Source of the DNA: Priestia megaterium NBRC 15308 = ATCC 14581
Lineage (GTDB): Bacteria > Bacillota > Bacilli > Bacillales > Bacillaceae_H
Length of the DNA: 64,000 nt
Direction: 5' to 3'
Assembly: GCF_000832985.1 (NCBI RefSeq)
Contig: NZ_CP009920.1
Coordinates: 124,001-188,000, forward strand
Made by a program: the position numbers and the translations under genes. Positions 1,349 through 52,018 of the stretch are shown here, in pieces; positions within the stretch are counted from its first letter, which is position 1, and every line of letters begins with the position of its first letter. The notes below the pieces were generated by a model. That model was not told the origin of the DNA. It was given only the letters and a program-made list of their open reading frames with translations, and made no database searches.

Positions 1349-1572
1349 CTTTCTCCACTCCTTTTGTTTTTTATGTATGTGTTTTCATTCATCAATGGAT
1401 AAAAGTAATGTACTTAACTCTACCCGTATTAAAACAAAAATAATCATGGTATTTTATACTATTTTTTAATTTATGCACGTTTTATTTGTATATTTTTTAC
1501 AATATCACGCACATTAATAGCAAGATTAGCAAACGTATATATTTTACTATGCAACATGAGAGGAATTTCATC

Positions 1573-1851
1573 ATGACGATTAACAAATCAAACGATTGTT
1601 CTAGTCTAGCTGAAGTAGTTGACCGCATCTTAGATAAAGGCGTGGTAATTGACGTATTCGCTCGTATTTCCGTTATTGGTATTGAATTAATTACCATCGA
1701 AGCTCGAATCGTTATTGCCAGTGTGGACACTTGGCTGAGGTATGCCGAGGCAGTTCGGCTGCTTCATAATGAAAGAGAAGATTTTCTTTCTTCGAATAAC
1801 GGCGGAAAAAAACTTGAACAGCTAAACCTTTTACAAGATTTAGATTTATAA
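1573..1851 (+). CDS. gvpA2: Gas vesicle structural protein GvpA paralogue (cluster 2)
   Basis: 92 aa. Residues ~10-65 ([14 protein letters not shown]...TWLRYAEAV) carry the full GvpA signature: helix 1, two beta strands around a turn, helix 2. It is about 80% identical by eye to the GvpA and GvpB of the main cluster, with changes in usually invariant spots (VIDVFAR for VIDAFAR; AVRLL for AVGLL) and an unrelated C-terminal tail ending LLQDLDL. ATG 1573 follows GAGAGGAATTTCATC; the longer upstream frame has no RBS and leaves the family alignment. First gene of the compact operon; it could be the shell protein of a second vesicle type or a minor shell component. The 220 bp upstream are AT-rich with no clear promoter match. 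Confidence 0.93.
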
Positions 1852-1874
1852 ACTCATAAAGGTGGATTAGAGAA

Positions 1875-2138
1875 GTGAAAGTAGCCGAAATCATGGAATC
1901 CGTGACTGATTTTTTTAAAGAACACGTTGCTCCTCCTCACCGAATTATTTCGTATGAATCGATTCAAAATGGAGGATGGAAAATAACACTTGAGGCATTT
2001 GAAGAACAGGAGTATATGAGGCGCTATGCAAAAGATGAACTGCTTGGTATCTATGAAGTGCTGGTCAATAAGCAGCATAACATCACGTCTTTTTCACGCA
2101 CCAGCCTGCGCTATCGAAGCTCTCCAGCAGAGAAGTAA
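1875..2138 (+). CDS. gvpR2: GvpO/GvpR-family gas vesicle protein (cluster 2)
   Basis: 87 aa, co-linear with GvpR of the main cluster: DFFKEHVAPPH, then a GGWKITLE strand, EEQEYMRRYAKDE and LRYRSS at the end. In haloarchaea the GvpO family is needed for vesicle formation; its biochemical role is unsettled. The start is a GTG at 1875 behind AAAGGTGGATTAGAGAA, 23 bp after gvpA2. Here it follows gvpA2 directly, whereas the main cluster has gvpP, gvpQ and gvpB between. Confidence 0.9.
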   Translation: MKVAEIMESVTDFFKEHVAPPHRIISYESIQNGGWKITLEAFEEQEYMRRYAKDELLGIYEVLVNKQHNITSFSRTSLRYRSSPAEK

Positions 2139-2161
2139 GCTGATTATTTTAATGGAAAGGA

Positions 2162-2932
2162 ATGAAACAGAAATCAATGAGTGAAGAAACGGGCATTTAT
2201 ATTTTTTGCAGTATTCCCGCCACCGAGGCGCATACGTTTGGCAGCGTCACGATTGATCAGCAAGAAAGAGCTACTTTTACCATTCATTACCGAGATGCAG
2301 CTATAGTGGCTGCTGCCTTTCCTCTTAAAATTTACCATCCTACAAAAGAGAACGTCACAGCGCACCAGCAGGTGATTTCCAAAGTAATGAATGAGCATGA
2401 TTCGGTCATTCCAATCAGCTTTGGCAACGTGTTTCATAGTCAGCAAGATGTTGAAATGCTGTTAGAAAACTTATATCCACAGTTCGCCTCTCTTTTCCCA
2501 CAGTTAAAAGGAAAAATAGAAGTCGGACTAAAAGTAATTGGGAAACCGGACTGGCTGAAACAAAAAGTGAATCAAGATTCTTCTTTGCAGCAAGTACGAA
2601 ACCAGCGTTCTGCTAGTGCTGATTTTTATAAACAAATTGCGCACGGAGAAACAGCTCAGAAATTCTTTTTAAAGCTTCAGCACGACTGTAAAAAAGAGCT
2701 GTATCAACATTTAGAACCGATAGCTGAAGCGTCGAGACTCAACCCTCCTATTGTCGAAACAATGCTTTTGAACGCTTCTTTTTTAATTGACCGAGAAAAA
2801 GAAGCAGCGTTTGATGAACGTGTAAATGACCTGTATGAAAAATGGAAGCACAAAGCAGATTTTAAATACTCAGGACCGTGGGCTGCTTATAACTTTATCA
2901 ATATTCAATTAAAAGTAGAAGAGAATGTATGA
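2162..2932 (+). CDS. gvpF2: GvpL/GvpF-family gas vesicle protein (cluster 2)
   Basis: Up to 256 aa, matching main-cluster GvpF along its length: TGIYIF start, IPISFGNVF, KGKIEVGLKVIGKPDWL, ...TMLLNASFLIDRE, and the C-terminal SGPWAAYNFINI. The two-domain GvpL/F family binds GvpA and is thought to act in early assembly. Start is uncertain: ATG 2162 lies almost against GGAAAGG, while the in-frame ATG 2177 fits the start of the paralogue (MSEETG / MSETNETG) but sits far from the RBS. The TGA overlaps the next ATG (ATGA), implying translational coupling. Confidence 0.92.
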   Translation: MKQKSMSEETGIYIFCSIPATEAHTFGSVTIDQQERATFTIHYRDAAIVAAAFPLKIYHPTKENVTAHQQVISKVMNEHDSVIPISFGNVFHSQQDVEMLLENLYPQFASLFPQLKGKIEVGLKVIGKPDWLKQKVNQDSSLQQVRNQRSASADFYKQIAHGETAQKFFLKLQHDCKKELYQHLEPIAEASRLNPPIVETMLLNASFLIDREKEAAFDERVNDLYEKWKHKADFKYSGPWAAYNFINIQLKVEENV

Positions 2933-3186
2933 TTCATAAACTGCTGCTGTCTCCTGTCACGCTCATTGTTAAAGTTGGGAAAAAAATCAAAGAAGAAGCG
3001 GATAAGGAACTGTATGATGTTTCTTTTATTCAGCAAAAAATCGTTCATCTTCAAATGATGTATGAGCTTGGAGAAATACCAGAAGATGCATATATGGAAA
3101 AAGAAAAAGAACTGCTGCTGAGATATGAAGCTGCAAAGGAATATGAATTGAAAAGATGGGAATCAATGACGAAGAAACAAAAGTGA
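2929..3186 (+). CDS. gvpG2: Gas vesicle protein GvpG (cluster 2)
   Basis: 85 aa, the length of the family. N-terminal hydrophobic stretch (LLLSPVTLIVKVGKKI), then a long alpha-helical charged region with LQMMYELGEIPEDAY, the family's best conserved block. Overlaps gvpF2 by 4 bp. GvpG is an accessory assembly protein that interacts with GvpF/L-type proteins in haloarchaeal studies. Confidence 0.92.
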   Translation: MIHKLLLSPVTLIVKVGKKIKEEADKELYDVSFIQQKIVHLQMMYELGEIPEDAYMEKEKELLLRYEAAKEYELKRWESMTKKQK

Positions 3187-3195
3187 GGTTAAAAG

Positions 3196-4020
3196 ATGGA
3201 AAAGCTCATTTATTTATATGGTCTAGTTCCAACCGAAGAAGCTAAGGAAATGCCCTTTCCTTCACTTGAAGGCATGGATCAGAACAATCCTATCTATGCT
3301 CTTTACTTTAATGACATTACCGCATTTGTATGCGACTTGCCAAGCGATGAGTATTCGGAAGAAATGCTGAAAGAAAAGATCGAGCACGATATGAAATGGC
3401 TGCAGGACAAAGCCATGCATCACCATGAGATTCTTCTTTTCTTACAAAGTCACTACACGCTTCTTCCCATGAAATTTTGTACGGTCTACAAAAGCAAGGA
3501 TAGCTGTCAAAAAAGTATTGCTGATAACAAACAAAAAACCCTCTCTTCTCTTCAGCTTTTAAAAAGATCTGAAGAATGGAATATAAAAGTATATGCCCAT
3601 ACGAATTCTTTAAAGAACTATCTGCTAACGAACAATGAAACGATCCAAAAGAAAAAAGAAGAAATAAATACGCTGCCTCCAGGCAGGCAGTTTTTTGAAC
3701 GTAAAAAGATAGAAAGGCTGATCGAAGAAGAAACAGAAAAAGAACAGCTGTCGCTTTGTGATCACTTGCACAGTGAGATAAGCCCCTACGCCGCTTACCA
3801 CACAATCAAAAATAACTGGAGTCAAAAAATAACCGGCGAGAGCTACAGCATGTGTTGGAACAGCATCTACCTTCTTTCAAAGAACAATGTAGAATCGTTT
3901 TTAAAAGCCATTAGCGACAAGCAAACGTTTTATAGTGAAATGGGACTGAACATCGAAGTAACGGGACCATGGCCTGCTTATCATATCGACACTCTGCGCT
4001 CGGAGAAAGATGCGGGATGA
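3196..4020 (+). CDS. gvpL2: Gas vesicle protein GvpL (cluster 2)
   Basis: 274 aa, second GvpL/F-family member of the operon. It begins LIYLYGLVPTEEA, has the MKFCTVYKSK block near residue 95, PGRQFFERKKIE near 160 and ends with VTGPWPAYH, all shared with main-cluster GvpL. GvpL is proposed to be a hub binding several accessory Gvp proteins. RBS AGTGAGGTTAAAAG precedes ATG. Its stop overlaps the gvpS2 start (ATGA). Confidence 0.93.
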   Translation: MEKLIYLYGLVPTEEAKEMPFPSLEGMDQNNPIYALYFNDITAFVCDLPSDEYSEEMLKEKIEHDMKWLQDKAMHHHEILLFLQSHYTLLPMKFCTVYKSKDSCQKSIADNKQKTLSSLQLLKRSEEWNIKVYAHTNSLKNYLLTNNETIQKKKEEINTLPPGRQFFERKKIERLIEEETEKEQLSLCDHLHSEISPYAAYHTIKNNWSQKITGESYSMCWNSIYLLSKNNVESFLKAISDKQTFYSEMGLNIEVTGPWPAYHIDTLRSEKDAG

Positions 4021-4268
4021 CATCGCTGCGAAAACAAACGCTGGAGCAAAAGGACATCGCCCTCATTGATATATTAGATGTGATCCTCGATAAAGGAATT
4101 GCCATTAAAGGTGATTTATTGATTTCAATTGCCGGAATTGATTTAGTCTATCTTGATTTGCGGGTATTGATTTCTTCTGTAGAAACGCTGATAGGCTCTC
4201 ATGATCGTCAAATCATTTCTTCTCAGCAGCTTGAACAGGAAACGGAGGCGTTGCGAAATGGAAAATAA
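4017..4268 (+). CDS. gvpS2: GvpS (GvpA/J/M-like minor protein, cluster 2)
   Basis: 83 aa. Core DIALIDILDVILDKGIAIKGDLLISIAGIDLVYLDLRVLISS is nearly identical to main-cluster GvpS and shows the GvpA fold. ATG 4017 is chosen because it overlaps the gvpL2 stop, follows CGGAGAAAG and aligns with the paralogue; the longer frame from 3969 lies within gvpL2. The C-terminus is about 12 residues shorter than the main copy, so the overlap with gvpK is 11 bp here against 47 bp there. Confidence 0.92.
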   Translation: MTSLRKQTLEQKDIALIDILDVILDKGIAIKGDLLISIAGIDLVYLDLRVLISSVETLIGSHDRQIISSQQLEQETEALRNGK

Positions 4269-4542
4269 CCTCAAACGAAACGGCCGCATTGAGCTGAGTG
4301 CGGAAAATGCTGAACAAGGCCTAGCGCAGCTTGTTTTAACCGTCATTGAATTACTGCGGCAGCTCATTGAAAAACATGCGATTCGCCGAGTGGACAGCGG
4401 AAACCTGACGGACGCTCAAATCGAAGATCTGGGCATGGCGTTGATGAAGTTAGAGAACAAAATGGAGGAGCTAAAATCAGTGTTTAACTTTACAAATGAA
4501 GATTTAAATATTGATCTAGGTCCCCTAGGAAAAGTGCTATAA
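4258..4542 (+). CDS. gvpK2: Gas vesicle protein GvpK (cluster 2)
   Basis: 94 aa, same length as the main-cluster copy. It contains AEQGLAQLVLTVIELLRQL, RRVDSGNLTDAQIEDLG and ends in DLNIDLGPLG. GvpK is essential for vesicle formation in several systems. ATG 4258 has GGAGG eight bases upstream and overlaps gvpS2. Confidence 0.93.
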   Translation: MENNLKRNGRIELSAENAEQGLAQLVLTVIELLRQLIEKHAIRRVDSGNLTDAQIEDLGMALMKLENKMEELKSVFNFTNEDLNIDLGPLGKVL

Positions 4543-4556
4543 CAAGGAGTGAAAAA

Positions 4557-4874
4557 ATGGCGGCGGAACATAACGGGCATCTGGGCACCATTGTAGAAGT
4601 ATTAGAAAAAGTATTAGATAAAGGTCTTGTTATTGCTGGAGATATTAAAGTGCAAATTGCTGATGTTGAACTCTTAACAATCAAAATCCGGCTGCTTGTC
4701 GCTTCTATTGATAAAGCAAGAGAAATTGGCATGGACTGGTGGGAAACAGACCCTTACCTATGTTCAAAAGCAAATCAGTCTTATCAAAAACTCCAGGCGG
4801 AAAATAACAGTTTAACCCAGCAAGTGGCATCTTTAACGCAGCGAATTCAAGATGATTTGCTTTCGCTTGATTAA
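4557..4874 (+). CDS. gvpJ2: Gas vesicle protein GvpJ (GvpA-like, cluster 2)
   Basis: 105 aa. GvpA-fold core (IVEVLEKVLDKGLVIAGDIKVQIADVELLTIKIRLLVAS) followed by the GvpJ-specific AREIGMDWWETDPYL and a leucine-heptad tail (LQAENNSLTQQVASL). GvpJ caps or nucleates shells in current models. RBS CAAGGAGTGAAAA before ATG. It is the last recognised gvp gene of the operon; the helical tail is longer than in the main copy. Confidence 0.93.
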   Translation: MAAEHNGHLGTIVEVLEKVLDKGLVIAGDIKVQIADVELLTIKIRLLVASIDKAREIGMDWWETDPYLCSKANQSYQKLQAENNSLTQQVASLTQRIQDDLLSLD

Positions 4875-4906
4875 CAGCTCACTTTATATAAGGAGGAATA
4901 ACAAAC

Positions 4907-5035
4907 ATGAATCCTGAACAAAAATCTACGCTGTCTCCTATTTCACAAGAGCAGCAAAGCCCCGATACTCAGCTAACGGAAAAAGAAGAGCGTATGCCGG
5001 AGTATACGCATACTTCGCTTAATCCAGATTCATAG
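4907..5035 (+). CDS. Small hydrophilic protein, 42 aa, last gene of gvp cluster 2
   Basis: Frame MNPEQKSTLSPISQEQQ... to ...TSLNPDS, rich in Gln, Ser, Pro and Glu, probably disordered. An ideal RBS (AAGGAGGAATAACAAAC) precedes it. It lies 32 bp after gvpJ2 and directly before the operon terminator, so it should be co-transcribed. It resembles neither GvpT nor GvpU, which hold the equivalent place in the main cluster. No family recognised. Confidence 0.7.
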   Translation: MNPEQKSTLSPISQEQQSPDTQLTEKEERMPEYTHTSLNPDS

Positions 5036-5039
5036 AACC

Positions 5040-5072
5040 AAAAGAGAAATGCTTCGGCATTTCTCTTTTTAA
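5040..5072 (+). terminator. Terminator of gvp cluster 2
   Basis: Perfect stem AAAGAGAAATGC with a TTCG tetraloop and T-run; ends the compact gas vesicle operon. Confidence 0.92.
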
Positions 5073-5846: not shown

Positions 5847-6287
5847 CTATCCGTTATAAACGCTAGCGCATGTTCCGGGCTTTGGCTCGTAGTAACAGTG
5901 ATTTTTGTATTGACCAGAAGCGGGTTGACCGTACCAGGTTGGAGGGCATGGAGCGGATGGATTAAAGTACCACAGTGCATATTTCCCCGGGTGTTCTCTC
6001 CAATAATCCAAATTCTTTTTGGCTAACCTTTTTTCAACACCTCTTGCTCTTTGATAAAATACGTTTCCTTTTTGAACAGCTTCGAACGAATAGTTGCCTC
6101 CCTGTACCTGATAAATAACTTGCGGAACGGATCTTAAATTCTTGAAATCTAAACAGTTTGCTTTAAGACGATTTACAATGACATTTCCAACATACAGCAT
6201 TCCTTGTTTTCCTTCGCCTTCAGCTTCTGCTCTCATCATCCTTGCCATTAAAGCAACGTCTGAATCTCGATAATTTACTCTTGGCAT
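5847..6287 (-). CDS. cwlJ: Spore cortex-lytic cell wall hydrolase CwlJ
   Basis: 146 aa, the length of B. subtilis CwlJ, consisting only of the Hydrolase_2 domain. It starts SDVALMARMMRAEAEGEGKQGMLYVGNVIVNR, the catalytic-Glu region of the SleB/CwlJ family, and ends with WYFNPSAPCPPTWYGQP and Cys-containing CYYEPKPGTC. CwlJ degrades cortex peptidoglycan during Ca-dipicolinate-triggered germination and is held in the coat with GerQ; gerQ is not seen nearby. RBS TTGGGGTGAAAAA before ATG. No signal peptide, as expected. Confidence 0.92.
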   Translation of the reverse strand: MPRVNYRDSDVALMARMMRAEAEGEGKQGMLYVGNVIVNRLKANCLDFKNLRSVPQVIYQVQGGNYSFEAVQKGNVFYQRARGVEKRLAKKNLDYWREHPGKYALWYFNPSAPCPPTWYGQPASGQYKNHCYYEPKPGTCASVYNG

Positions 6288-6418
6288 TTTTTCACCCCAA
6301 AAATATACTATGAAAAAAGGACGCTCTTGATGTCACTGTCCCTAAAATAACAATAGCTGGATGTTAAATACACGCTGAGCACACTGACACTGCAGAAAGA
6401 GTTTTTATTACGAAAAGC

Positions 6419-6937
6419 TTATTCTTTTTCATAATAAAGCTGAGCAATTTGCCCGTACTGTTTTATATCGGTAAGCTTCAAGTTCATTTCGGGAATTTCT
6501 CGTTTAAACAGCGGAATACCAGCCCCAAGCAAAACGGGAATGATCGATATAATAAATTCATCCACCCTCTTTTCTGTTAAGAAATCAGCGAGAATGTCAG
6601 CGCCTCCCACCAGCCATATTTTTTTAGTTTCTTGACTGAGGTTGTTGAGAAATGACGCCACGCTTTCGTTTATAAACTCGACATATTGATCTTTTCCTTG
6701 AGCTGAGCGGCTAAACACGTAGCACTTTTTATCGAGATACGGAAACTCAGGTGTGAGCTTCAGCACGTGGTCGTACGTAGCTTTTCCCATAACGACCGCA
6801 TCACACGTTTGATAAAAATCTTCGTAGCCGTTGTCTCCCTCTCCTTCTACGCTTTCCAGCCAGTCAATCTCTCCGTTTTCTCTTGCAATATATCCGTCTA
6901 AGCTTGCCGCAATATATACGACGATTTTTTTCTTCAT
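6419..6937 (-). CDS. Dihydrofolate reductase-like (RibD C-terminal domain) protein
   Basis: 172 aa. KIVVYIAASLDGYIAREN at the N-terminus, VVMGKATYDHVL near 50 and WLVGGADILADFL near 115 are the nucleotide-binding motifs of the RibD_C/DHFR-like family (YwjB, YyaP type). The physiological substrate is unknown. Start set at ATG 6937, with GGAG eight bases upstream, rather than the upstream TTG 6955. Divergent from the WYL regulator at 7028, about 90 bp apart; such pairs often regulate one another. Confidence 0.88.
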   Translation of the reverse strand: MKKKIVVYIAASLDGYIARENGEIDWLESVEGEGDNGYEDFYQTCDAVVMGKATYDHVLKLTPEFPYLDKKCYVFSRSAQGKDQYVEFINESVASFLNNLSQETKKIWLVGGADILADFLTEKRVDEFIISIIPVLLGAGIPLFKREIPEMNLKLTDIKQYGQIAQLYYEKE

Positions 6938-7027
6938 TCCCTTTTCTCCTTTCAACTTTACTGTTTCTGTATGATATCATCTTAATACGACACTTTTTGT
7001 CATATTAAAAGAAAAAGGTGAAAATAA

Positions 7028-7987
7028 ATGGCTAAGTCTAGACGGCTTGTTGATATGCTCATGTTTATTAATACAAAAAGAACGTTTACGGCAAAAGAAC
7101 TAGCGGAGGAATTTGGTCTTTCTGTGCGGACCGTCCAGCGCTATTTACTGGACTTAAGTGAATTAGGACTGCCTCTTTACAGTGAAAAAGGACGGAGCGG
7201 CGGCTATAGAGTGCTAAAAAATCGTATTCTCCCTCCTATTTTGTTTACAGAAGAAGAAGCTATTTCTATCTTTTTTGCTTATCAAGCTCTGCAGTATTAT
7301 CATGACCTTCCGTTTGATGCAGAAATTCATGCGGCTCTTCAAAAATTTTATGTTTACCTGTCTGAGGAAACAAAGAAAAAAGCAGATAAAATGAGTGCTC
7401 ATATTGCGTTTTGGAATCCTAAAAGAAACCTTGACACTCCTTATTTAAAAGCGCTTTTAGAAGCAAGCCTTGCAGGAAAATATATTGAATTTCTTTATGA
7501 TTCAAAGGAGGGTCAAACAAGAAAAGAAGTCAAACCCCTTGGAATTTATGCTCATAACGGTTTATGGTACTGTCCTGCTTATTCTTACAATAAGCAAAAA
7601 GTATTATTGTTTCGAGCGGATCGTATTCGCTCGTTAAAAGTTTTAGAAAAAGACAAAAATATGTCTCTTACGTTAAAGGAATGGCTTGAAACAGAACCGG
7701 TAAATTCACAGCCAATTTTGTTAAAAGTAACCTTGACACACGAAGGCGTTCGTCAGTGTAAAAGCGTTCCATGGCTTGAAAATCATGTGAAGGTGGCGCG
7801 TGATGGAAATGGGTACATCGATACAATAACTGATGGAAATGAATTAAACTACATGGCTTCTTTTTTCTATACCTTAGGGGCTCATGCTTTTATTGAAGAA
7901 CCTCAGGAGCTAATTAAAAAGATCTGCTGTCACGCAGAAGAAACGTTAAGGCGCTATAAAAATGAAGTGGGGACAAAAGACGAATAA
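7028..7987 (+). CDS. WYL-domain HTH transcriptional regulator
   Basis: 319 aa. N-terminal winged HTH (FTAKELAEEFGLSVRTVQRYLLDL, residues ~17-42), a linker, then a WYL domain from about 145 with YIEFLYDSKEGQ, KPLGIYAHNGLWYCPAYSY and ILFRADRIRS-type strands, and a C-terminal WCX segment. WYL domains bind ligands, often nucleic acid or small effectors. AAAAGGTGAAAATAA before ATG. Likely controls the divergent DHFR-like gene. Confidence 0.9.
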   Translation: MAKSRRLVDMLMFINTKRTFTAKELAEEFGLSVRTVQRYLLDLSELGLPLYSEKGRSGGYRVLKNRILPPILFTEEEAISIFFAYQALQYYHDLPFDAEIHAALQKFYVYLSEETKKKADKMSAHIAFWNPKRNLDTPYLKALLEASLAGKYIEFLYDSKEGQTRKEVKPLGIYAHNGLWYCPAYSYNKQKVLLFRADRIRSLKVLEKDKNMSLTLKEWLETEPVNSQPILLKVTLTHEGVRQCKSVPWLENHVKVARDGNGYIDTITDGNELNYMASFFYTLGAHAFIEEPQELIKKICCHAEETLRRYKNEVGTKDE

Positions 7988-8026
7988 ATGGGAGAAATGA
8001 ATTTCGTATGGCTTGCATGTGACACC

Positions 8027-8067
8027 GCGGTTGATTGGAGTCTTCACCTTGCCCTCCAATCAACCGC
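8027..8067. repeat. 14-bp inverted repeat (hairpin) between convergent genes
   Basis: Arms GCGGTTGATTGGAG (8027-8040) and its exact complement (8054-8067) around a 13-nt loop, with outer GTGAC/GTCAC that can extend the stem. No U-run follows, so it is not a standard terminator. Confidence 0.8.
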
Positions 8068-8106
8068 TACAAGTCACTAAATAGATGAAATCTACGTTTA
8101 CTCTAC

Positions 8107-8143
8107 CAATAAAAAGATCCGAACGATTCATCGTTCGGATCTT
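8107..8143 (-). terminator. Terminator of the P450 BM3 operon
   Basis: Perfect 14-bp inverted repeat AAGATCCGAACGAT with a T-rich stretch following on the - strand, 45 bp after the CYP102A1 stop codon. Confidence 0.9.
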
Positions 8144-8186
8144 CCTTCAACCAACTAAACTACTTTTATCCTAGCCTCTTTTTAAT

Positions 8187-11348
<3,162 letters not shown>

Positions 11349-11362
11349 TCACTTGTTAAGTT

Positions 11363-45033: not shown

Positions 45034-45064
45034 AAACGGCGGAGCAATCACCCCGCCGTTTTTT
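45034..45064. terminator. Bidirectional terminator at the end of the main gvp cluster
   Basis: AAACGGCGG ... CCGCCGTTT, T-run on both strands. Confidence 0.92.
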
Positions 45065-45479
45065 ATGAACTCTTTTTACTCGTTGATTTTGCATCAGAAA
45101 TCTTTCCTAAGAAAAACCCGTCTACTTCTGCTATTTTCCCTCTCCAAAAGATCTTTCCTTTAGAAGGAGTAGATTTACTGTCTCCACAGTAAATCTTTGT
45201 ATTTTTCAAATGAATAAAATGGGCTTCTGCTTCTCCGTTTGATTCGCTCGCTTCGCTTGCTAAAGAGAATTGTTCGCTTAGCGCCTGAGCCACTTCGCTG
45301 CCTTCTTCAAACGTTTCGCTTAAGTAATCAAAGTATTCTTTTGCTGAAATCATGGTACCGGAAATCACAGCGCCGTTTACATTTAATGAAATATCAAGTG
45401 AAAAGCCATGTTTATTAGAAGCTTTCACAAAGTATTCAAGCGTATTGTCTTTAGTTGAAAAAGAAGGGCCTGTACTCAT
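45063..45479 (-). CDS. gvpU: Gas vesicle protein GvpU
   Basis: 138 aa, last gene of the 14-gene cluster. TLEYFVKASNKHGFSLDISLNVNGAVISGTMISAKEYFDYL followed by an acidic helix and a basic Ser/Lys-rich tail (SDAKSTSKKSS). GvpU of B. megaterium is reported to control clustering of vesicles in the cell. Not present in the compact cluster. Confidence 0.93.
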   Translation of the reverse strand: MSTGPSFSTKDNTLEYFVKASNKHGFSLDISLNVNGAVISGTMISAKEYFDYLSETFEEGSEVAQALSEQFSLASEASESNGEAEAHFIHLKNTKIYCGDSKSTPSKGKIFWRGKIAEVDGFFLGKISDAKSTSKKSS

Positions 45480-45502
45480 GTCTTTCTTTCCTCCTTTACG
45501 CC

Positions 45503-46375
45503 TTAGGCTGTTGTGTCGTCTTCACTAGAAAGAGATGTTGCGTCATCATCTTCTTCATCCGTGTTTTTCTTTGCTTTTGTATTTTTTGATTTTTTAGCTG
45601 TTGACTTTTTTGGCTTCGCTTCCTTTTTTTCTTCTTCGTTTTCATCTTCGTCGTCTTCTTCTGTTTTTACTTTTTTATTTTTTTTGTTTGAGCGAGAATC
45701 TTCCTCTTCTTCCTCGCTGTCTTCGTCACTTTCTTCTTCCTCTTCTTGCTCAGCTTCTTTTTTATCCTTTTTACGAGGCTTAGATGTTTCTTCTTCGTTT
45801 TCATCGTCCTGCTCGTTTTCTTCGTTTTCTTCGTTCTCTTCTTCGTCGGAATCTGTATCTTCCGTTTCTTGGTCTTGATTTTTATTGAGGCTAAGCTCAA
45901 CAAGCATGTTCATTTTTTCTTCAAGCTGTGATAAGCGATCTTGAAGAGTTTGATTTTCTTCTTTTAACTCGTCGTACTCTTGAACGTTATCGTCTTCTGT
46001 TTCGCTACTAGAAGAATTTACGTTTTCTTCATCATCTTTTGATTTATCTTTATCTTTTTTAAACAAGCTTCCCGCAGATGTTTTCAGGCTGGCCACACTG
46101 CTTTTTGATTTTTCTTTTACCTTTGTTCCTAAATCAGATGCTTTGCTTTTTAATTCGTCTGTATCAATGCGGTCAAGGAGACTTTTTCGATTTTCAGGAG
46201 TCGATACATATCCAATCGTTGCACCGATGATGCCTCCTGCTACCGCTCGTTTGATTGGCCCGCTGCTTGTTGTTTTGCTTGCTTTTGAACCGTTCTTTTC
46301 TTTTGAACCGTTTTCCGTATTTTTATTTTCCTTGTTTTCTGCCTGTGTGTTATCTAATTTTGTTTCAGTTGCCAT
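45503..46375 (-). CDS. gvpT: Gas vesicle protein GvpT, long polyampholytic tail
   Basis: 290 aa from ATG 46375 (GGAGGGATTTACA upstream). N-terminal YtxH-like glycine segment GGIIGATIGYVSTPENRKSLLDR (~47-70), a Ser/Asp/Lys region, a coiled coil YDELKEENQTLQDRLSQLEEKMNMLVEL, and ~125 residues of Glu/Asp blocks alternating with Lys blocks. The tail should be disordered and highly charged. Function uncertain; dispensable in reduced constructs. Confidence 0.92.
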   Translation of the reverse strand: MATETKLDNTQAENKENKNTENGSKEKNGSKASKTTSSGPIKRAVAGGIIGATIGYVSTPENRKSLLDRIDTDELKSKASDLGTKVKEKSKSSVASLKTSAGSLFKKDKDKSKDDEENVNSSSSETEDDNVQEYDELKEENQTLQDRLSQLEEKMNMLVELSLNKNQDQETEDTDSDEEENEENEENEQDDENEEETSKPRKKDKKEAEQEEEEESDEDSEEEEEDSRSNKKNKKVKTEEDDEDENEEEKKEAKPKKSTAKKSKNTKAKKNTDEEDDDATSLSSEDDTTA

Positions 46376-46411
46376 TGTAAATCCCTCCATTTTTTAAGTA
46401 GCATACAGTTT

Positions 46412-46714
46412 TTAACGTTTCGTTTCCATTTTTTCTTCAAGCGTTTTTAACCGCTCATGCAGCATTTTATTTTCTTCTTCGAGCGCTTTGTTATTGGCTC
46501 CTTTTGAACTGAGATAGGGATCATTTTCCCACCAGTCCATGCCGATTTCTTTTGCTTTATCAACCGAAGCCACAATCAAGCGGATCTTTATCGTTAATAG
46601 CTCGACATCTGCAATTCCTACGGTGATGTCCCCCGCTATGACGACTCCTTTATCCAAAATCTTTTCGAGCACATCTACAATCGTACTTGACTGCATATTA
46701 TGTTCGACTGCCAT
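46412..46714 (-). CDS. gvpJ: Gas vesicle protein GvpJ
   Basis: 100 aa. GvpA-like core [59 protein letters not shown] and a heptad tail LEEENKMLHERLKTLEEKM. Minor shell protein or nucleator. RBS TAGGAGGAACAGT; 21 bp after gvpK. Confidence 0.96.
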   Translation of the reverse strand: MAVEHNMQSSTIVDVLEKILDKGVVIAGDITVGIADVELLTIKIRLIVASVDKAKEIGMDWWENDPYLSSKGANNKALEEENKMLHERLKTLEEKMETKR

Positions 46715-46735
46715 ACTGTTCCTCCTAATGACCGC

Positions 46736-47020
46736 TTAAAGCAGGCTGCCTAGCGGTCCAAGATCAATATTTAAATCTTCTGCGTCCAGACCGAACACCT
46801 CTTTCAACTCGTCCATTTTTTCTTCTAAGTTCATTAGTGCAATTCCTAAGTTTTCAATTTGTTCGTCCGTCAACGTTCCACCCTCCACCCGCCTCATGGC
46901 ATGACGTTCAACGATTTGCCTCAATAGCTCAATAACTGTCATCACAAGCTGCGCTAAGCCTTGTTCAGCTTGATCAGGATCCAAGTGGATTCGTCCATTT
47001 GCTTGGCTGACCGGTTGCAT
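46736..47020 (-). CDS. gvpK: Gas vesicle protein GvpK
   Basis: 94 aa, AEQGLAQLVMTVIELLRQIVERHAMRRV, DEQIENLGIALMNLEEKM, ending DLNIDLGPLG. AAGGAGGAATTAATGG before ATG lies within gvpS, which it overlaps by 47 bp. Confidence 0.96.
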   Translation of the reverse strand: MQPVSQANGRIHLDPDQAEQGLAQLVMTVIELLRQIVERHAMRRVEGGTLTDEQIENLGIALMNLEEKMDELKEVFGLDAEDLNIDLGPLGSLL

Positions 47021-47261
47021 CCATTAATTCCTCCTTTTGTTTATCAAATTGTTCAGAAGTGATTGGTTTGCGATTTCCTTCTTTTGCTTGCACCAGCGTT
47101 TCAACCGAAGAAATAAGCACCCGCAAATCCAAATACACTAAATCGATGCCGGCTATGGAAATGATTAAGTCTCCTTTAATGGCGACTCCTTTATCTAAAA
47201 TGACATCTAAAATATCAATGAGAGCAATATCTTTATTCTCCATGGATTCTTTAAGAGACAT
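46974..47261 (-). CDS. gvpS: Gas vesicle protein GvpS
   Basis: 95 aa, GvpA-fold minor protein: DIALIDILDVILDKGVAIKGDLIISIAGIDLVYLDLRVLISSVETL. Longer C-terminus than the cluster-2 copy. Confidence 0.95.
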   Translation of the reverse strand: MSLKESMENKDIALIDILDVILDKGVAIKGDLIISIAGIDLVYLDLRVLISSVETLVQAKEGNRKPITSEQFDKQKEELMDATGQPSKWTNPLGS

Positions 47262-47278
47262 AATGTTAATTCCTCACT

Positions 47279-48088
47279 TTACGCAAAGCTCGAGAAATGA
47301 TAGGGCGGCCATGGTCCCGTCACTTCAAATTTCCAGCCTTTATTTTCAAGCTTTTGCTGAAGCTCTTCTATTTCGGTTACAAACTTAGTGATCTGCAAAG
47401 ACGGGAGAAGAAACACGCTGTTCCACGCCATCTGTCCAGCTGCGCCCGTTACGTCCTTGCTCCAATTCTTTTTAACAGAGTCATAAAGCGATAATTCTTT
47501 AAGCTTGTCATGTATCTCTTCACACACTTTATTTTTGTGAAGTTCTAATTCTCTTTCAATCAGCTGATCTATTTTTTTCTTTTCAAAAAACTGTCTTCCT
47601 GGTGATAAGTGACTAATTTCTTCTTTTTTCGCTTTCACGCTTTCATTCGTTTCGCTGATTCCTTTTTTAAGCTCCGTATCATCACAGTAAATCTTCACGT
47701 TCCACTCTTCATTTCCTTGAAGCAGCGTCAGTGAATTCTCTATCTTTTCTTTGTTAATCTCAATAGCTGCCTGCAGACTTTCTTCACCTTTATAAATGGT
47801 ACAAAATTTTAATGGAATGATCGTAAATTCTTCGTACAAAGCGGCTACCGTCTCGTGATGATGAAATGCTTTTTCCTGCAGCCAGCTCATATCCTGCTCC
47901 ATTTTTTCTTGAATCACTTTTTCTGAATAGGTGTCAGCATCCAGTTTAGAAACGACAGCCGTCACCTGATCAAATGCAATTGGGTACAGTGAATGTTCTC
48001 CGTCAAACCCTTTATAAGATGGAAACGGCTCTATGGCTGCTGCTTCTTTTGTTGGAATTAAACCGTATAAATACAGTAATTCTCCCAT
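47279..48088 (-). CDS. gvpL: Gas vesicle protein GvpL
   Basis: 269 aa GvpL/F family: LLYLYGLIPTKEA start, IPLKFCTIYKGEE, PGRQFFEKKKIDQLI, and FEVTGPWPPYHF at the end. Starts immediately after the gvpG stop codon. Confidence 0.96.
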   Translation of the reverse strand: MGELLYLYGLIPTKEAAAIEPFPSYKGFDGEHSLYPIAFDQVTAVVSKLDADTYSEKVIQEKMEQDMSWLQEKAFHHHETVAALYEEFTIIPLKFCTIYKGEESLQAAIEINKEKIENSLTLLQGNEEWNVKIYCDDTELKKGISETNESVKAKKEEISHLSPGRQFFEKKKIDQLIERELELHKNKVCEEIHDKLKELSLYDSVKKNWSKDVTGAAGQMAWNSVFLLPSLQITKFVTEIEELQQKLENKGWKFEVTGPWPPYHFSSFA

Positions 48089-48355
48089 CTAGGATTCCTC
48101 ATTTCTTTTTTTTGTTAGCTCTTCCCATTGTTCAATTTCTCTGCGCTTCGCAATTTCGTACCTCATTAACAGTTCATCTTCTTTTTCTTGAAACGCTTCT
48201 TCCGGAATTTCACCAAGCTCAAACATCATTTGAAGCTGAATGAGTTTTTGCTGAATCGTCGGAAGGTCATATAACTGTTTATCAGCTTCTTCCTGTACTT
48301 TCTCGCCGATTTTCACTACAAGGTTAATAGGTGCGGTTACTAATTTGTGAAGCAC
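48089..48355 (-). CDS. gvpG: Gas vesicle protein GvpG
   Basis: 88 aa: hydrophobic start LVTAPINLVVKIGEKVQEEADKQLY, then LQMMFELGEIPEEAFQEKE and a charged helix. One base after the gvpF stop. Confidence 0.95.
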   Translation of the reverse strand: MLHKLVTAPINLVVKIGEKVQEEADKQLYDLPTIQQKLIQLQMMFELGEIPEEAFQEKEDELLMRYEIAKRREIEQWEELTKKRNEES

Positions 48356-48356
48356 G

Positions 48357-49124
48357 TTATTTCTCTTCTACTTTTAGGCGAATGTTCACAAAATTATAAG
48401 CAGGCCAAGGACCGCTGTAATGAAAATCGGCTTTGTCTTTCCAGTTTTCATGCGCTTCATTCACTTTTTCATCAAACTTCGCTTCATCTTCTCGGTTAAT
48501 TAAGAAAGACGCGTTCAAAAGCATCGTTTCGCCCGTTGGCTCATTTGCTTTTGCTGCTTCCGCTGCTTCTTCAAGCGGTGAAAACACATCTGTTTTGACT
48601 TCTTTTTGCAGGGAAGTAAACATCTTTTGAGCCATTCCTCCAAGCTGAATACGCTCATAATAACCGGCTGCTTCTGATTTTCCTTTTACGGATGCTGATA
48701 CTTTTTCAAGTTCAGGATTTTCGTTTACTTTTTTCTCAAGCCATTCTTTTTTCCCAATTACTTTTAAACCGACTTCAATTTTTCCTTTGATTGCTGGAAA
48801 CAGCTTTTCAAACTGCGGATAAAGGTTTTCCAAAAGAACTTTTACGTCTTCTTTTGATTTGAATACATTCCCAAAGCTGATTGGAATAACCGTATCGTTC
48901 TTGTCCATAATCGCTGCTACTGCGTTTTGATGCATTAATAAATTTTGGCGATTGGGATGATAAATTTTCATCGGTACTTCAGCTGCTACCATAGCTGCGT
49001 CTTTGTAGCGAATCAAAAATGTTTCAGCTTTTGTTCCTTCTACTTCTACCGATCCAAATTCTTCGTCTTTATCCGTTTGAATGGCGCTAAAAATATAAAT
49101 ACCTGTTTCGTTTGTTTCACTCAT
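48357..49124 (-). CDS. gvpF: Gas vesicle protein GvpF
   Basis: 255 aa GvpL/F family: TGIYIFSAIQ start, VIPISFGNVFKSKEDVKVLLENLYPQ, KGKIEVGLKVIGKKEWLE, TMLLNASFLINRED and SGPWPAYNFVNI. RBS AAAGGAGCTTGAAAAC. Confidence 0.96.
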   Translation of the reverse strand: MSETNETGIYIFSAIQTDKDEEFGSVEVEGTKAETFLIRYKDAAMVAAEVPMKIYHPNRQNLLMHQNAVAAIMDKNDTVIPISFGNVFKSKEDVKVLLENLYPQFEKLFPAIKGKIEVGLKVIGKKEWLEKKVNENPELEKVSASVKGKSEAAGYYERIQLGGMAQKMFTSLQKEVKTDVFSPLEEAAEAAKANEPTGETMLLNASFLINREDEAKFDEKVNEAHENWKDKADFHYSGPWPAYNFVNIRLKVEEK

Positions 49125-49138
49125 GTTTTCAAGCTCCT

Positions 49139-50065
49139 TTACTTTTCTTCCGTGTCTATATTCTTACACTCTTCTAAAATGATTTTTTCGGCTTTGCTTT
49201 TTGCATTTTCTTCATCCAAACATTTGGTAAGCGGATGATGCAAAATATCCATACATAACGTTTGAAAATCTTCGTCATTTCCATCGATAGCAATGTCTTG
49301 CTGCGTGGCGAGAGTAGCGATCATAAGCGAAGCCCGAAGGCTAAGTCCGCTGCTGTTTTCGTCTCCAGAGCGGTTTCGCACGTTTGCTACGAGCGTTACA
49401 ATTGTGCGCGCTTCGTCTTCTTCTACGTCCGTTTTCTCCGTTAAAATCGCTGTCTCTCTGTCGATGTCTTTATAATCAATAAACATGGTAATTAACCTAT
49501 CAAGAAGCGCATCTTGCGTATCGTATACGCCGGCATACTCAGCTGGATTGCTTGTGAAGATGACGCGAAAATCAGGGTGCACGCGCACAAAAGGATCGGT
49601 CATTTTCACTCCATACAGCGGAAGCACGCCTTCTTCTAATATTGATAGAAAGATATTATTCGTTGCAGGCTTAGACCGAGTAAATTCGTCGTAAATCAGC
49701 GTATAGCCATTTTTTACAGCTTCAAGCAATCGGCCATCCTGCCAGTTTTCACTCACTTGTTCATCTTTTTTATAGACAGAACGAACATACTGATCGATTA
49801 CTTTTTTGCTCGTGTATCCCGTAAAATCGCCAATTAAATCTTTATTGTTGAGCTCGTGATTCCCGTGCATCAGCATTACAGGACGCTTTCTCTTTTTAGC
49901 AAGCGCTCGCGCTAAAGAGGTTTTGCCTCCGCCGGCAGGACCTGTAAAATGAATGGAATAGCCGGACTTCAAATAGCTCAGCGCTCTTGAAAGAACCTCT
50001 TTTGTCTCGTCATCTTGTATAAAAGCTCCACTGCCTTTTTTCCTTTTGTCTGTTAAGACGGTCAT
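49139..50065 (-). CDS. gvpN: Gas vesicle AAA+ ATPase GvpN
   Basis: 308 aa MoxR-like AAA+ ATPase. Walker A GPAGGGKTSLA (~41-51), Walker B TLIYDEF (~125), sensor-1 VIFTSNPAEYAG, and arginine finger region DALLDRLITMFIDY. It promotes growth of vesicles to full width and length. The compact cluster has no counterpart. RBS AGGAGGAACGTAAAA. Confidence 0.97.
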   Translation of the reverse strand: MTVLTDKRKKGSGAFIQDDETKEVLSRALSYLKSGYSIHFTGPAGGGKTSLARALAKKRKRPVMLMHGNHELNNKDLIGDFTGYTSKKVIDQYVRSVYKKDEQVSENWQDGRLLEAVKNGYTLIYDEFTRSKPATNNIFLSILEEGVLPLYGVKMTDPFVRVHPDFRVIFTSNPAEYAGVYDTQDALLDRLITMFIDYKDIDRETAILTEKTDVEEDEARTIVTLVANVRNRSGDENSSGLSLRASLMIATLATQQDIAIDGNDEDFQTLCMDILHHPLTKCLDEENAKSKAEKIILEECKNIDTEEK

Positions 50066-50093
50066 TTTTACGTTCCTCCTGCCATCTTATCGT

Positions 50094-50360
50094 TTATGCT
50101 TCAATGCCAATGGCGCTTCTATATCTGACGTCGAGTCGTTTGAATGAAATGACTTCTTTTTCTTTATTTAAAAAGCACTCGTACGTTCCGAGCATTTCAT
50201 CTTTGGCGTATTTTTTCATATATTCTCGTTCTTCAATGACTTCAACAATAACTCTCCAGCCTTCATCTTCAGTAGCTTCCACCGAGGTAATTTTATGAGG
50301 AGGAGCTACGTGTTCACCGAAAAAGTCGTTCACGGCTTGCATAATTTTTTTAATTTCCAT
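50094..50360 (-). CDS. gvpR: GvpO-family gas vesicle protein GvpR
   Basis: 88 aa from ATG 50360 (TTGGAGGCTACTAAAA); the longer frame start is upstream of this RBS. DFFGEHVAPPHKITSVE, EEREYMKKYAKDEMLGTYE, DVRYRS. Confidence 0.92.
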   Translation of the reverse strand: MEIKKIMQAVNDFFGEHVAPPHKITSVEATEDEGWRVIVEVIEEREYMKKYAKDEMLGTYECFLNKEKEVISFKRLDVRYRSAIGIEA

Positions 50361-50435
50361 TTTTAGTAGCCTCCAATAGTTAGATCTAAAAGCTGGAACC
50401 ACCCTCAAAAAAGGAAGGTTCCATATCACTTCATA

Positions 50436-50702
50436 TTAAATACTAAAACGCGGCTGTCCTTCACTTGAATTTGAACGTTCAGGAAGACCGTTTTCTTCTA
50501 CGTCGTCACGCAGAAGCCCTACTGCTTCTGCGTAGCGTAACCATGTATCAACACTGGCAATAACCACTCGTGCTTCAATCGTTAAAATCTCAATTCCTAC
50601 AACAGAAACTCTTGCAAAAGCATCAATAACAATTCCTTTATCTAAAATACGGTCAATGACTTCTGCTAAACTTGAACTATTAGTACTTTTTTGAATAGAC
50701 AT
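50436..50702 (-). CDS. gvpB: Gas vesicle structural protein GvpB
   Basis: 88 aa major shell protein type; almost identical to GvpA here up to AVGLL, then tail [14 protein letters not shown]... The family forms the rib-like shell wall. RBS CGAAAGGAGAAATGAGAT. Confidence 0.97.
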
Positions 50703-50721
50703 ATCTCATTTCTCCTTTCGC

Positions 50722-51195
50722 TTATGAGCCCATTGTTTTTAAATCTGTAGATGATTTAATATCATTGGAACTTTTAATCTTAGTAGAGCTTTTAATATCC
50801 GTTGCTTTTTTAATCTGATTTGCGCCTTTTATTTTCCGCTTATTTTTTGACTTCTCTTTATCGTCTGAAGAAGAAACTTTTTCTTGAAAGTTTTCTCCAG
50901 CTTCTTTCACATCGCTAAGCTTCTCTTTTACTGATAGTAAGACGTCTTGGAGCTTTTCTTTTGCGTCTTCCCCTTTGCCGTGTACCTTTTGGGCATTTTT
51001 CTCTTTTGTTTCCTGCAGTTTTTCTGATGCTTCATTTGCTTTTTCCTGCAGTTTTCCTTCAGTTTTTTCGACAAATTTTTCTTTCGCTTTTTCTTTAACC
51101 TTTTCTTCTACCTTTTCCTTAACAGGTTCAGGTGTATGATCGATGATCTTTTTTCCTGCTTTTAAGGCTGCTTTCTCCACATCTTTTTTATCCAT
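50722..51195 (-). CDS. gvpQ: Gas vesicle protein GvpQ
   Basis: 157 aa, no signal or membrane segment. Residues ~20-110 are a Lys/Glu amphipathic helical region of LEA/apolipoprotein character (EKVKEKAKEKFVEKTEGKL). The C-terminus holds about five six-residue repeats of the type IKSSTD. Function unknown; not needed in reduced clusters. Confidence 0.92.
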   Translation of the reverse strand: MDKKDVEKAALKAGKKIIDHTPEPVKEKVEEKVKEKAKEKFVEKTEGKLQEKANEASEKLQETKEKNAQKVHGKGEDAKEKLQDVLLSVKEKLSDVKEAGENFQEKVSSSDDKEKSKNKRKIKGANQIKKATDIKSSTKIKSSNDIKSSTDLKTMGS

Positions 51196-51220
51196 GAAAT
51201 TCCCCTTAAGGACGGATATC

Positions 51221-51697
51221 CTACTTCTTCGCGTCCATGAGTTTGTTTAGCATCTCTTCAATGCGCTGCAGCTGGTCGTTCATATTTTTATTTTCTTCTT
51301 TTAGCTCTTCGTACTGAGACGTTTCCATTTCTGCGCTTTGGCTGACTTCTTCCTGCGCATTTCCCTGTTCATTTGATGCATCTTCTTTTTTCTTTTTAGG
51401 TGCCAGCAGCTTGCTTAAATTGTCTTTTTCAAGATAGCCTGTAGCCGTCTGTCTTAATGCTCCCATCGCTTGCTGCGTTAGAATATCCTGTGCGTTTCTT
51501 CTTAACTCTTGTCCTGTCGCACGTACAATTTCTGATTGTCCTAAGCGGCTGAGTACTTTTTTACTCGTTTGAGGACTTGAAAGAAGTCCAATTCCCGCTC
51601 CTACTACGCCTCCTAAAATAGCAAGATTTAAAGAGTTTTGCGTTTTTTCTTCCTGTTGCTGATTTTCTTGTTTTTCATTTTGATCAGTTGTTGTCAT
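51221..51697 (-). CDS. gvpP: Gas vesicle protein GvpP (YtxH-like)
   Basis: 158 aa. Glycine-rich segment LAILGGVVGAGIGLLSSPQTSKKVLSRLG (~27-55), helical region, and C-terminal coiled coil YEELKEENKNMNDQLQRIEEMLNKLM. Domain order matches the first two thirds of GvpT. Role unknown. Confidence 0.93.
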   Translation of the reverse strand: MTTTDQNEKQENQQQEEKTQNSLNLAILGGVVGAGIGLLSSPQTSKKVLSRLGQSEIVRATGQELRRNAQDILTQQAMGALRQTATGYLEKDNLSKLLAPKKKKEDASNEQGNAQEEVSQSAEMETSQYEELKEENKNMNDQLQRIEEMLNKLMDAKK

Positions 51698-51757
51698 GTT
51701 CCATCCTCTTTTCTCTTATTATTATTTATTTAATGAATCTTCTAATGATTAAAAGAC

Positions 51758-52018
51758 TTAAAAGCTAAGCCCTGCTCCTCGCTCCTCTGTTCGGCCAGGC
51801 AGCCCTTCTTCCTCTACTTTGTCGGTTAATAACCCGACGGCTTCTGCATAGCGAAGCCACGTATCAACACTTGCAATAACGACTCGTGCTTCAATCGTTA
51901 AAATTTCAATTCCTACGAGTGATACTCGGGCAAAAGCATCGATGACAATCCCTTTGTCGAGAATTCGATCAATCACTTCTGCTAAACTAGAACTATCTGT
52001 ACTTTTTTGAATACTCAT
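51758..52018 (-). CDS. gvpA: Gas vesicle structural protein GvpA
   Basis: 86 aa. [55 protein letters not shown] is the canonical shell protein core, then tail [19 protein letters not shown]. First gene of the cluster; RBS GAAAGGAGCTGCTAAA. Confidence 0.97.

Follow-up and report, generated by a model that had tools for sequence, protein, structure and literature searches.

The eight gas vesicle genes near the start of the analysed DNA (a stretch of 64,000 nucleotides of Priestia megaterium, hereafter the window) are best explained as a functional second gas vesicle operon of its own lineage, which is present at this site in some members of the P. megaterium group, where selection would maintain it. 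A probability of roughly 0.6 is given to this reading, which was drawn from sequence comparison. The compact operon encodes a shell protein A with a conserved core, two A-like proteins (S and J), two GvpF/L-type proteins, G, K and R, and carries neither the elongation motor (N) nor the bundling factors (T and U). A selected operon without a motor, next to a complete cluster in an experimentally tractable soil bacterium, would provide a natural test of the need for the motor and, together with the GvpN-free genomes of Bacillales described below (12 of 110), would bring the role of the motor and the growth of shells without it within reach of direct experiment. If the operon works, this natural set of eight genes in 3.3 kb would make a useful compact kit for acoustic reporters.

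Gene content and protein families

The genes are arranged on the + strand in the order gvpA-R-F-G-L-S-K-J and form a tight operon (positions 1573-4874; Table 1), in which three of the seven junctions overlap and the remaining gaps measure 9-23 bases. The open reading frames and the Pfam matches bear out this arrangement as given in the preliminary description, except for the end of the operon, placed there at 5035: the operon ends at 4874 and does not include the ORF at 4907-5035. The Pfam cut-offs are passed by A, S and J (PF00741), F and L (PF06386), G (PF05120) and K (PF05121); the shell protein GvpA, the assembly proteins F, G, K and L and the A-like proteins J and S/M are all present at the locus. 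An alternative start of gvpF is possible at 2177. As had been noted, gvpN, gvpP, gvpQ, gvpT, gvpU and a second shell gene are missing, and they are also missing from the counterparts in two other genomes (L008 and L010); the only GvpN over the family cut-off belongs to the main cluster.

Table 1. Positions of the gas vesicle genes and neighboring features in the window
Feature	Position	Strand	Remarks
gvpA, shell protein	1573..1851	+	92 aa; PF00741 55.5 bits (cut-off 25); NCBIfam GvpA 114 bits, cut-off 100 exceeded
gvpR, GvpO-like	1875..2138	+	87 aa; GTG start; 49% identity to main GvpR
gvpF	2162..2932	+	256 aa; PF06386 181 bits; 56% identity to main GvpF
gvpG	2929..3186	+	85 aa; PF05120 72 bits; 60% identity to main GvpG
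gvpL	3196..4020	+	274 aa; PF06386 171 bits; 44% identity to main GvpL
gvpS, A/J/M family	4017..4268	+	83 aa; PF00741 49.6 bits
gvpK	4258..4542	+	94 aa; PF05121 118 bits; 66% identity to main GvpK
gvpJ, A/J/M family	4557..4874	+	105 aa; PF00741 57.7 bits
Segment found in three species but not in two sister species	1540..4865	+	occupied versus empty site
Resident 42-aa ORF	4907..5035	+	own RBS (by inspection); outside the gvp operon
Terminator-like hairpin 3' of the 42-aa ORF	5040..5069	+	also seen in the aligned species with an empty site
Main gvp cluster, A P Q B R N F G L S K J T U	45063..52018	-	14 genes
gvpN of the main cluster	49139-50065		sole GvpN in the genome over the family cut-off

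The minimal set of haloarchaea (A, F, G, J, K, L, M and O) was defined by transformants (Offner 2000, via PMC11223475), in contrast to the compact operon, which is known here from its genes. All eight families of this set are represented at the compact locus, O by R, M by S and J by J, and the family-for-family match claimed earlier is supported by profile scores, weakly in the case of R. The best NCBIfam model for compact S is haloarchaeal GvpM (37.5 bits), with the GvpA model close to it (36.7 bits), and for compact J it is haloarchaeal GvpJ (49 bits). Compact R gives a weak match to the GvpO model PF05800 (18.9 bits, E 0.0015, under the cut-off of 25); its place in the GvpO family gains support from the main-cluster R, to which it is 49% identical and which scores 33 bits. 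The haloarchaeal rule is not simply transferable, since in the B. megaterium system GvpR is dispensable and GvpN is needed for elongation (PMC11223475).

Compact GvpA matches 39 of the 43 columns with a conservation of 95% or more across 87 other GvpA/B rows, and carries N-terminal and hairpin residues found in none of these rows. Its tail is devoid of a C-terminal motif that is common in GvpU-bearing clusters (40 of 47 with GvpU versus 0 of 15 without), a motif chosen after the tails had been seen and for which a tree-corrected test comprises only three independent pairs (p 0.5). Since this GvpU-associated tail is missing, as are GvpU and GvpT, the vesicles of the compact operon would probably be unbundled.

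A scan for -10/-35 promoter-like sites gave 4 against a shuffle mean of 11, and no promoter was identified by it. A perfect palindrome (1486-1502) is kept in all five aligned species; with one mismatch allowed its pattern has 6 matches in the window versus 3.4 expected, an excess which is unremarkable in shuffles (13 of 100 reach 6), and the palindrome is not claimed as a promoter or regulatory element.

Descent, site and selection

The main cluster, known as the pNL29 system, lies 40.2 kb from the compact operon in the opposite orientation, as the preliminary description had stated (40 kb). Both share genes of the same families in the same order, with 44-68% identity between their proteins, and differ in that the compact operon is without P, Q, B, N, T and U, has another GvpA tail and belongs to a separate lineage. 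In a concatenated tree the compact operon lies outside the clade made up of the Priestia main clusters and related ones, on a long stem (0.84) for which long-branch error is not fully excludable. The AU test rejects a single group of the compact operon and the Priestia main cluster (p 0.00056), also when the sister genus is added to the latter (p 0.0024), and none of the seven gene trees joins the compact genes directly to those of the Priestia main cluster, many of the branches concerned being weak. A recent duplication from the main cluster is rejected by these trees and tests. That the operon is a duplicate of the Priestia main cluster after gene loss, as its gene order (that of the main cluster minus P, Q, B, N, T and U) might suggest, is the least probable of the explanations weighed here. 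The genes, previously called paralogues, deserve the term only in a loose sense, as they branch apart from the Priestia main lineage, and the assembly is not a simplified, slimmed-down copy of the main one: it represents its own lineage, located where two sister species have an empty site.

A donor lineage was not found among the sequences searched. For compact GvpF, 12 of 398 class genomes gave a match, none above 57% once the window's own copy is set aside, and 16 plasmid records gave matches that all stay below 60%. A contig scan limited to close relatives, from which entries close to the window's genome may be missing, yielded P. aryabhattai and a contig that is likely contaminated. GC content (compact operon 39.6%, main cluster 39.2%, window 39.6%) is uninformative on transfer. 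Kinship with a motor-less second cluster of another genome (L054 of G328) was rejected by a one-clade test (p 0.0189); F and G of that cluster are very divergent and its S and K share 80-85% identity with those of the main cluster, and it looks like an independent case.

The empty site has the same junction in both species without the operon (L062 in G009 and L063 in G003). The resident 42-aa ORF, detected in 5 of 16 family genomes, which are the five carrying this locus, is kept in both of them and is not considered an operon member because it persists where the gvp genes are absent. In the flank trees G009 groups with the carrier G001 (right flank) and G003 with the carrier G007. Given that these conflicting trees coexist with one shared empty junction, either an old empty/occupied polymorphism was exchanged among the species or the operon was lost repeatedly. 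No direct repeat explaining a deletion was seen at the junction on reading the alignment.

All eight frames are open in the three carriers found (the window, L008 and L010). Whole-operon dN/dS for three species pairs was 0.097, 0.096 and 0.157 for the compact operon versus 0.061, 0.096 and 0.108 for the main cluster (the broken main gvpL of L009 excluded); the compact values (0.10-0.16, against 0.06-0.11 for the main cluster) and the open frames agree with the earlier statement that the locus is not in random decay. As to other Priestia genomes, which had been proposed for a survey, the operon was found intact in three species, that of the window included, and absent in two sister species. For the same pairs dS was 0.12-0.20 in the compact operon, uneven by gene (0.51 for gvpA and 0.38 for gvpG in one pair), and 0.12-0.15 in the main cluster; being close to each other, these values indicate that the operon diverged roughly along with its carriers. 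A relic, left by a once larger cluster in the course of gene loss and on its way to disappearing, would be consistent with the empty site in G003 and G009 and with GvpL, whose dN is the highest of the eight compact genes in each pair (0.021-0.054; main GvpL, 0.014-0.041 over six pairs where it is intact). This view, already disfavoured by the eight open frames and the dN/dS of 0.10-0.16 in three species, is regarded as highly improbable.

Possible functions of the operon

Most likely, the locus is a functional gas vesicle operon whose shells either need no GvpN or borrow it. Compact F and G, with L, would hold the hydrophobic proteins A, S and J in solution, a bicone would be initiated by S, J, L and K, and A would then be added to it to give gas-filled shells. 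Without a GvpN of its own, assembly would be arrested at small bicone-like or narrow vesicles, or the GvpN of the main cluster would be used. The absence of N, T and U together with the changes in the shell protein makes smaller or different structures a fair prediction. Self-sufficiency, in turn, is not implied, since each of the three carriers also holds a main cluster with gvpN and published gvpN deletions yield no more than bicones, tiny vesicles or no vesicles (PMC11223475, PMC4982088, PMC9372576). A recent review places GvpN in all gas vesicle clusters and regards it as essential. By electron microscopy, pNL29 without gvpN showed no vesicles, and a figure legend of the same paper describes GvpN as non-essential for formation and needed for elongation (PMC11223475); Serratia gvpN mutants formed small bicones only and did not float (PMC4982088), and haloarchaea without GvpN formed only tiny vesicles (PMC9372576).

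The operon may instead have been turned to a purpose unrelated to buoyancy, for example in salt or nitrogen stress, which has been proposed for Streptomyces clusters of the same families, perhaps without ever forming gas-filled vesicles. The gvp clusters of Streptomyces coelicolor, two in one genome, are described as salt-induced, their disruption leaving buoyancy unaffected (PMC5839063). The cluster listed for this organism as gvpOAFG-JLSK (PMC9501494) comprises these eight families, provided that R and O are treated as one, and has no gvpN, and no gas vesicles were found in any condition according to the available text of PMC4982088. This likeness was taken from gene listings, and the S. coelicolor cluster differs in gene order and in belonging to a distant phylum, whereas the other cluster of the window's genome is complete. 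Among the five clusters named with detectable vesicles in an E. coli screen (accessible part of PMC10344784), that of S. coelicolor does not appear; neither does the full B. megaterium cluster, and the same paper states that vesicle production by B. megaterium itself had not been reported. A review counts B. megaterium and Streptomyces among the soil bacteria that produce vesicles (PMC9501494). The megaterium strain NCT-2 figures in a nitrate/salt study, the gvp cluster being unspecified in the part available (PMC12756439). On the other hand, the gas-lining core of compact GvpA is conserved, which is not obviously required without gas, and a role of this kind is considered rather unlikely. Equally to be weighed is a helper function, by which compact proteins would enter main-cluster vesicles, giving mixed shells of altered diameter or amount, and would use the main GvpN. 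The presence of the main cluster in all three genomes and the closeness of the rib core of compact GvpA to main GvpA/B accord with it, and in P. aryabhattai B8W22, where main gvpL is broken and compact gvpL is open, a shared supply of GvpL is conceivable. A full set of F, G, L, S, K, J and R nevertheless exceeds the need of a helper, and the residues peculiar to compact A (0 of 87 other rows) point to rib contacts of its own; this function is judged unlikely.

Clusters without gvpN in Bacillales

Among 397 genomes of the order, 113 had a GvpF/L match and 110 at least two; in 12 of these 110 a GvpN over the family cut-off is absent from the whole genome. Since S. coelicolor lacks gvpN as well (PMC4982088), GvpN is a poor defining feature of such clusters. 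A literature search, at the level of titles and displayed abstracts, returned no description of the second operon or of GvpN-free clusters in Bacillales. In two of the 12 genomes (G120 and G221) the sole cluster (L069 and L071) has A R F G L S K J as its complete gene order; in contrast to this likeness, its proteins are distant from those of the window (28-70%) and the GvpA tail is long and repetitive.

All 17 clusters without gvpN placed on the tree keep R, F, G, L, S, K and J, the gvpF of G297 being broken, and their distribution implies at least 10 state changes, 7 of them forced by well-supported branches. In three genomes of one genus GvpN-free clusters had dN/dS of 0.031-0.042, as low as in five N-bearing pairs (0.031-0.057). 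A more specific proposal, put forward only tentatively, is that gas-filled shells arise from the compact operon with no GvpN involved, either elongating or remaining as short, unbundled bicones without the AAA+ motor, beside the motor-driven system of the same cell, and that it would exemplify a loss of the motor which occurred several times independently in Bacillales. In G222, another of the 12 genomes, a MoxR-like ORF with 30% identity to GvpN lies directly after the cluster, and in this case another ATPase may stand in for GvpN.

Organization and limits of the compact gvp operon

The compact gvp operon of Priestia megaterium consists of eight close-packed open frames, with overlaps at three of the seven junctions and gaps of 9-23 bases at the others, and lies on the strand opposite to that of the full 14-gene main cluster. 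Seven of the frames pass Pfam cut-offs (GvpA, F, G, L, S, K and J families). The eighth, compact GvpR, is 49% identical to its main counterpart and matches GvpO weakly, which together identify it. Identities between compact and main proteins are 60.5% (A), 49.4% (R), 56.0% (F), 60.0% (G), 44.4% (L), 67.9% (S), 66.0% (K) and 61.0% (J). In agreement with the preliminary description, the compact locus has nothing resembling N, P, Q, T, U or a second shell gene.

Coordinates of the features discussed (each in its own sequence)
Sequence	Positions	Strand	Feature
Window	1486-1502		Perfect palindrome TTGTATATTTTTTACAA
Window	~1540-4865		Segment absent from empty sites
Window	1573-4874	+	Compact operon, gvpA-R-F-G-L-S-K-J
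Window	8187-11336		Long ORF resembling the P450 BM3 fusion
Window	45063-52018	-	Main cluster, A P Q B R N F G L S K J T U
L032 (G222)	10900-11868		MoxR-like ORF after gvp cluster
L054 (G328:C15)	6105-9752		Second gvp cluster, R F G L S K J U A
L069	5157-5915		Tailed GvpA ORF
L071	8014-8910		Tailed GvpA ORF
L074 (G185:C3)	6185-7578		gvpN beside gvpP-like gene

Among 10 genomes of the genus, both clusters occur in three (G000, G001, G007) and the main cluster alone in two (G003, G009), while five gave no GvpF/L match. G003 and G009 keep the flanks of the compact operon on both sides and lack, with an identical junction, the segment that spans from the gvpA leader to the final codons of gvpJ. These empty sites retain a 42-aa ORF with its ribosome-binding site and a terminator-like hairpin; the ORF is present in five of 16 family genomes, exactly the five with this locus, and we take it as a resident gene outside the gvp operon. 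The operon end, previously placed at 5035, was moved to 4874 because this ORF remains where the gvp genes are absent. In trees of the flanks the two empty-site species do not come together, and either state, empty or occupied, may be the older. The palindrome upstream of the operon belongs to a conserved intergenic stretch common to the empty-site species. A contig of P. aryabhattai B8W22 is a close match to the window, in keeping with a place in the Priestia megaterium group. L020, a contig of 3129 bp under the title Sphingomonas sp. PsM26, encodes compact A to K proteins with 99-100% identity, and is probably Priestia contamination of that assembly.

Selection and lineage

The compact operon is under purifying selection and holds the families that nucleation and shell growth are believed to require, the motor GvpN excepted. 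Whole-operon dN/dS (Nei-Gojobori counts) for pairs among the three carriers is 0.097, 0.096 and 0.157, compared with 0.061, 0.096 and 0.108 for the main clusters of these pairs. The compact values are not near 1 and the frames are open throughout in all three carriers, in agreement with the earlier proposal that the operon is not decaying. The greatest dN of the eight genes is that of gvpL. In P. aryabhattai B8W22 the compact gvpL is open while two single-base gaps, in comparison with the window, interrupt the main copy; this break may be real or a draft-genome error.

The ancestry of the operon was addressed with 52 loci: both clusters of the window, another six from the genus, four from the family and 40 hand-picked from the order listing. 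In a tree built from seven concatenated proteins, the compact clusters of the three carriers make up a single clade on a long stem (0.84). This clade falls outside the one containing the Priestia main clusters, and the GvpF tree agrees with the placement. Constraining compact and Priestia main clusters together cost 41 log-likelihood units (p-AU 0.00056), and 34 units (p 0.0024) when the sister genus was included. In the six other gene trees, several relevant branches of which are weak, the two are never paired directly. The trees and both constraint tests speak against an origin as a trimmed copy of the main cluster. A search of 398 class genomes with compact GvpF found no relative above 57% identity, itself excepted, and no donor lineage. 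Together these results point to a lineage that is old or was transferred, subject to the caveat that trees are open to error from a long branch.

GvpN-free clusters in Bacillales

A GvpF/L match was present in 113 of 397 Bacillales genomes, 98 of which had GvpN over the cut-off. The other 15 comprise three with a single GvpF/L-like gene and 12 with at least two; when all 15 were searched again for GvpN at E 0.001 the best match reached 46.3 bits (cut-off 266.8). Thus, 12 of 110 genomes with at least two GvpF/L genes have gas-vesicle genes but no GvpN. Gene order in each of the 12 includes a shell gene and R, F, G, L, S, K and J; GvpU is kept in eight, Q without T and U in G222 and G374, and exactly A R F G L S K J in G120 and G221, while gvpF is broken in G297. 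The MoxR-like ORF of G222, 30% identical to GvpN over the match, might be a substitute ATPase. In two lone GvpF/L loci (L018 of G012, L019 of G013) no further gvp match was seen in the 16-kb stretches read.

In a 62-row tree the 17 gvpN-less rows (the 12 genomes, three compact clusters, the second cluster of G328 and the G185 cluster) require at least 10 changes, seven on well-supported branches. G185 has a detached motor gene, on a contig other than that of its gvp cluster. G328, of another Bacillales genus, holds a full cluster (L053) besides the motor-less one, whose F and G are very divergent and whose S and K share 80-85% identity with those of the window's main cluster. GvpR is retained in all 17 despite its proposed role as an aid to GvpN (PMC11445434). 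For three GvpN-free genomes of one genus dN/dS is 0.031-0.042, similar to the 0.031-0.057 of five pairs of N-bearing clusters, some synonymous distances being large; G120 and G221 gave no ratio, as synonymous sites are saturated.

Shell protein and proposed function

Of 43 columns with 95% or higher conservation across 87 other rows, compact GvpA keeps 39. Residues found in no or hardly any other row occur at the N-terminal positions 2, 4 and 9, at 35 next to the hairpin turn, and at 62, 65 and 66 where helix 2 ends (GvpB numbering). The N-terminus and turn have been linked to vesicle shape in a review (PMC10903477), and we infer that these changes may alter the shape. The tail of compact GvpA is wholly different. 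Among the 62 clusters examined, a C-terminal motif such as FSI is carried by 40 of the 47 that have GvpU and by none of the 15 that lack it; since the motif was picked after the data were seen and the test corrected for the tree drew on too few pairs, this association is a lead only. The same review reports the C-terminus of GvpA as the site of action of GvpU and GvpT, and the joint lack of bundling factors and docking tail suggests coherent remodelling. The GvpA ORFs of L069 and L071, in sole eight-gene clusters without GvpN, have long, repetitive T/Q/A/E-rich tails extending 185 and 210 residues past the core.

Studies of the main system (PMC11445434) are the basis of the proposed steps: F and G would chaperone A; S, J, K and L would work together early; and GvpN would serve elongation. 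From these roles, the compact operon should at minimum nucleate shells, and elongation would need either main-cluster GvpN or a motor-free mode, as hinted by the N-less genomes. Deletion of gvpN is described as giving tiny vesicles in haloarchaea (PMC9372576) and non-floating bicones in Serratia (PMC4982088). In the B. megaterium system electron microscopy showed no vesicles after this deletion, and the authors still consider GvpN necessary for elongation and not for formation (PMC11223475). One review places GvpN in all clusters (PMC10903477); S. coelicolor without gvpN is already on record (PMC4982088). In the accessible literature no cluster of these eight families was found to have yielded vesicles, which counts against a functional or motor-free reading. 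That the compact operon, previously proposed as a self-sufficient, simplified assembly, is a functional gas-vesicle operon is given a probability of roughly 0.6; motor-free assembly is considered less likely than not.

Among described architectures the S. coelicolor cluster gvpOAFG-JLSK (PMC9501494) comes nearest, with the same families in a different order. No vesicles are reported for this organism (PMC4982088), although a review states that Streptomyces forms them (PMC9501494); its cluster, like the full B. megaterium cluster, is outside the five giving vesicles in E. coli (PMC10344784), and it has been proposed to serve in stress or storage (PMC5839063). The compact operon is a variant of this reduced kind that occurs in Bacillota and beside a complete cluster.
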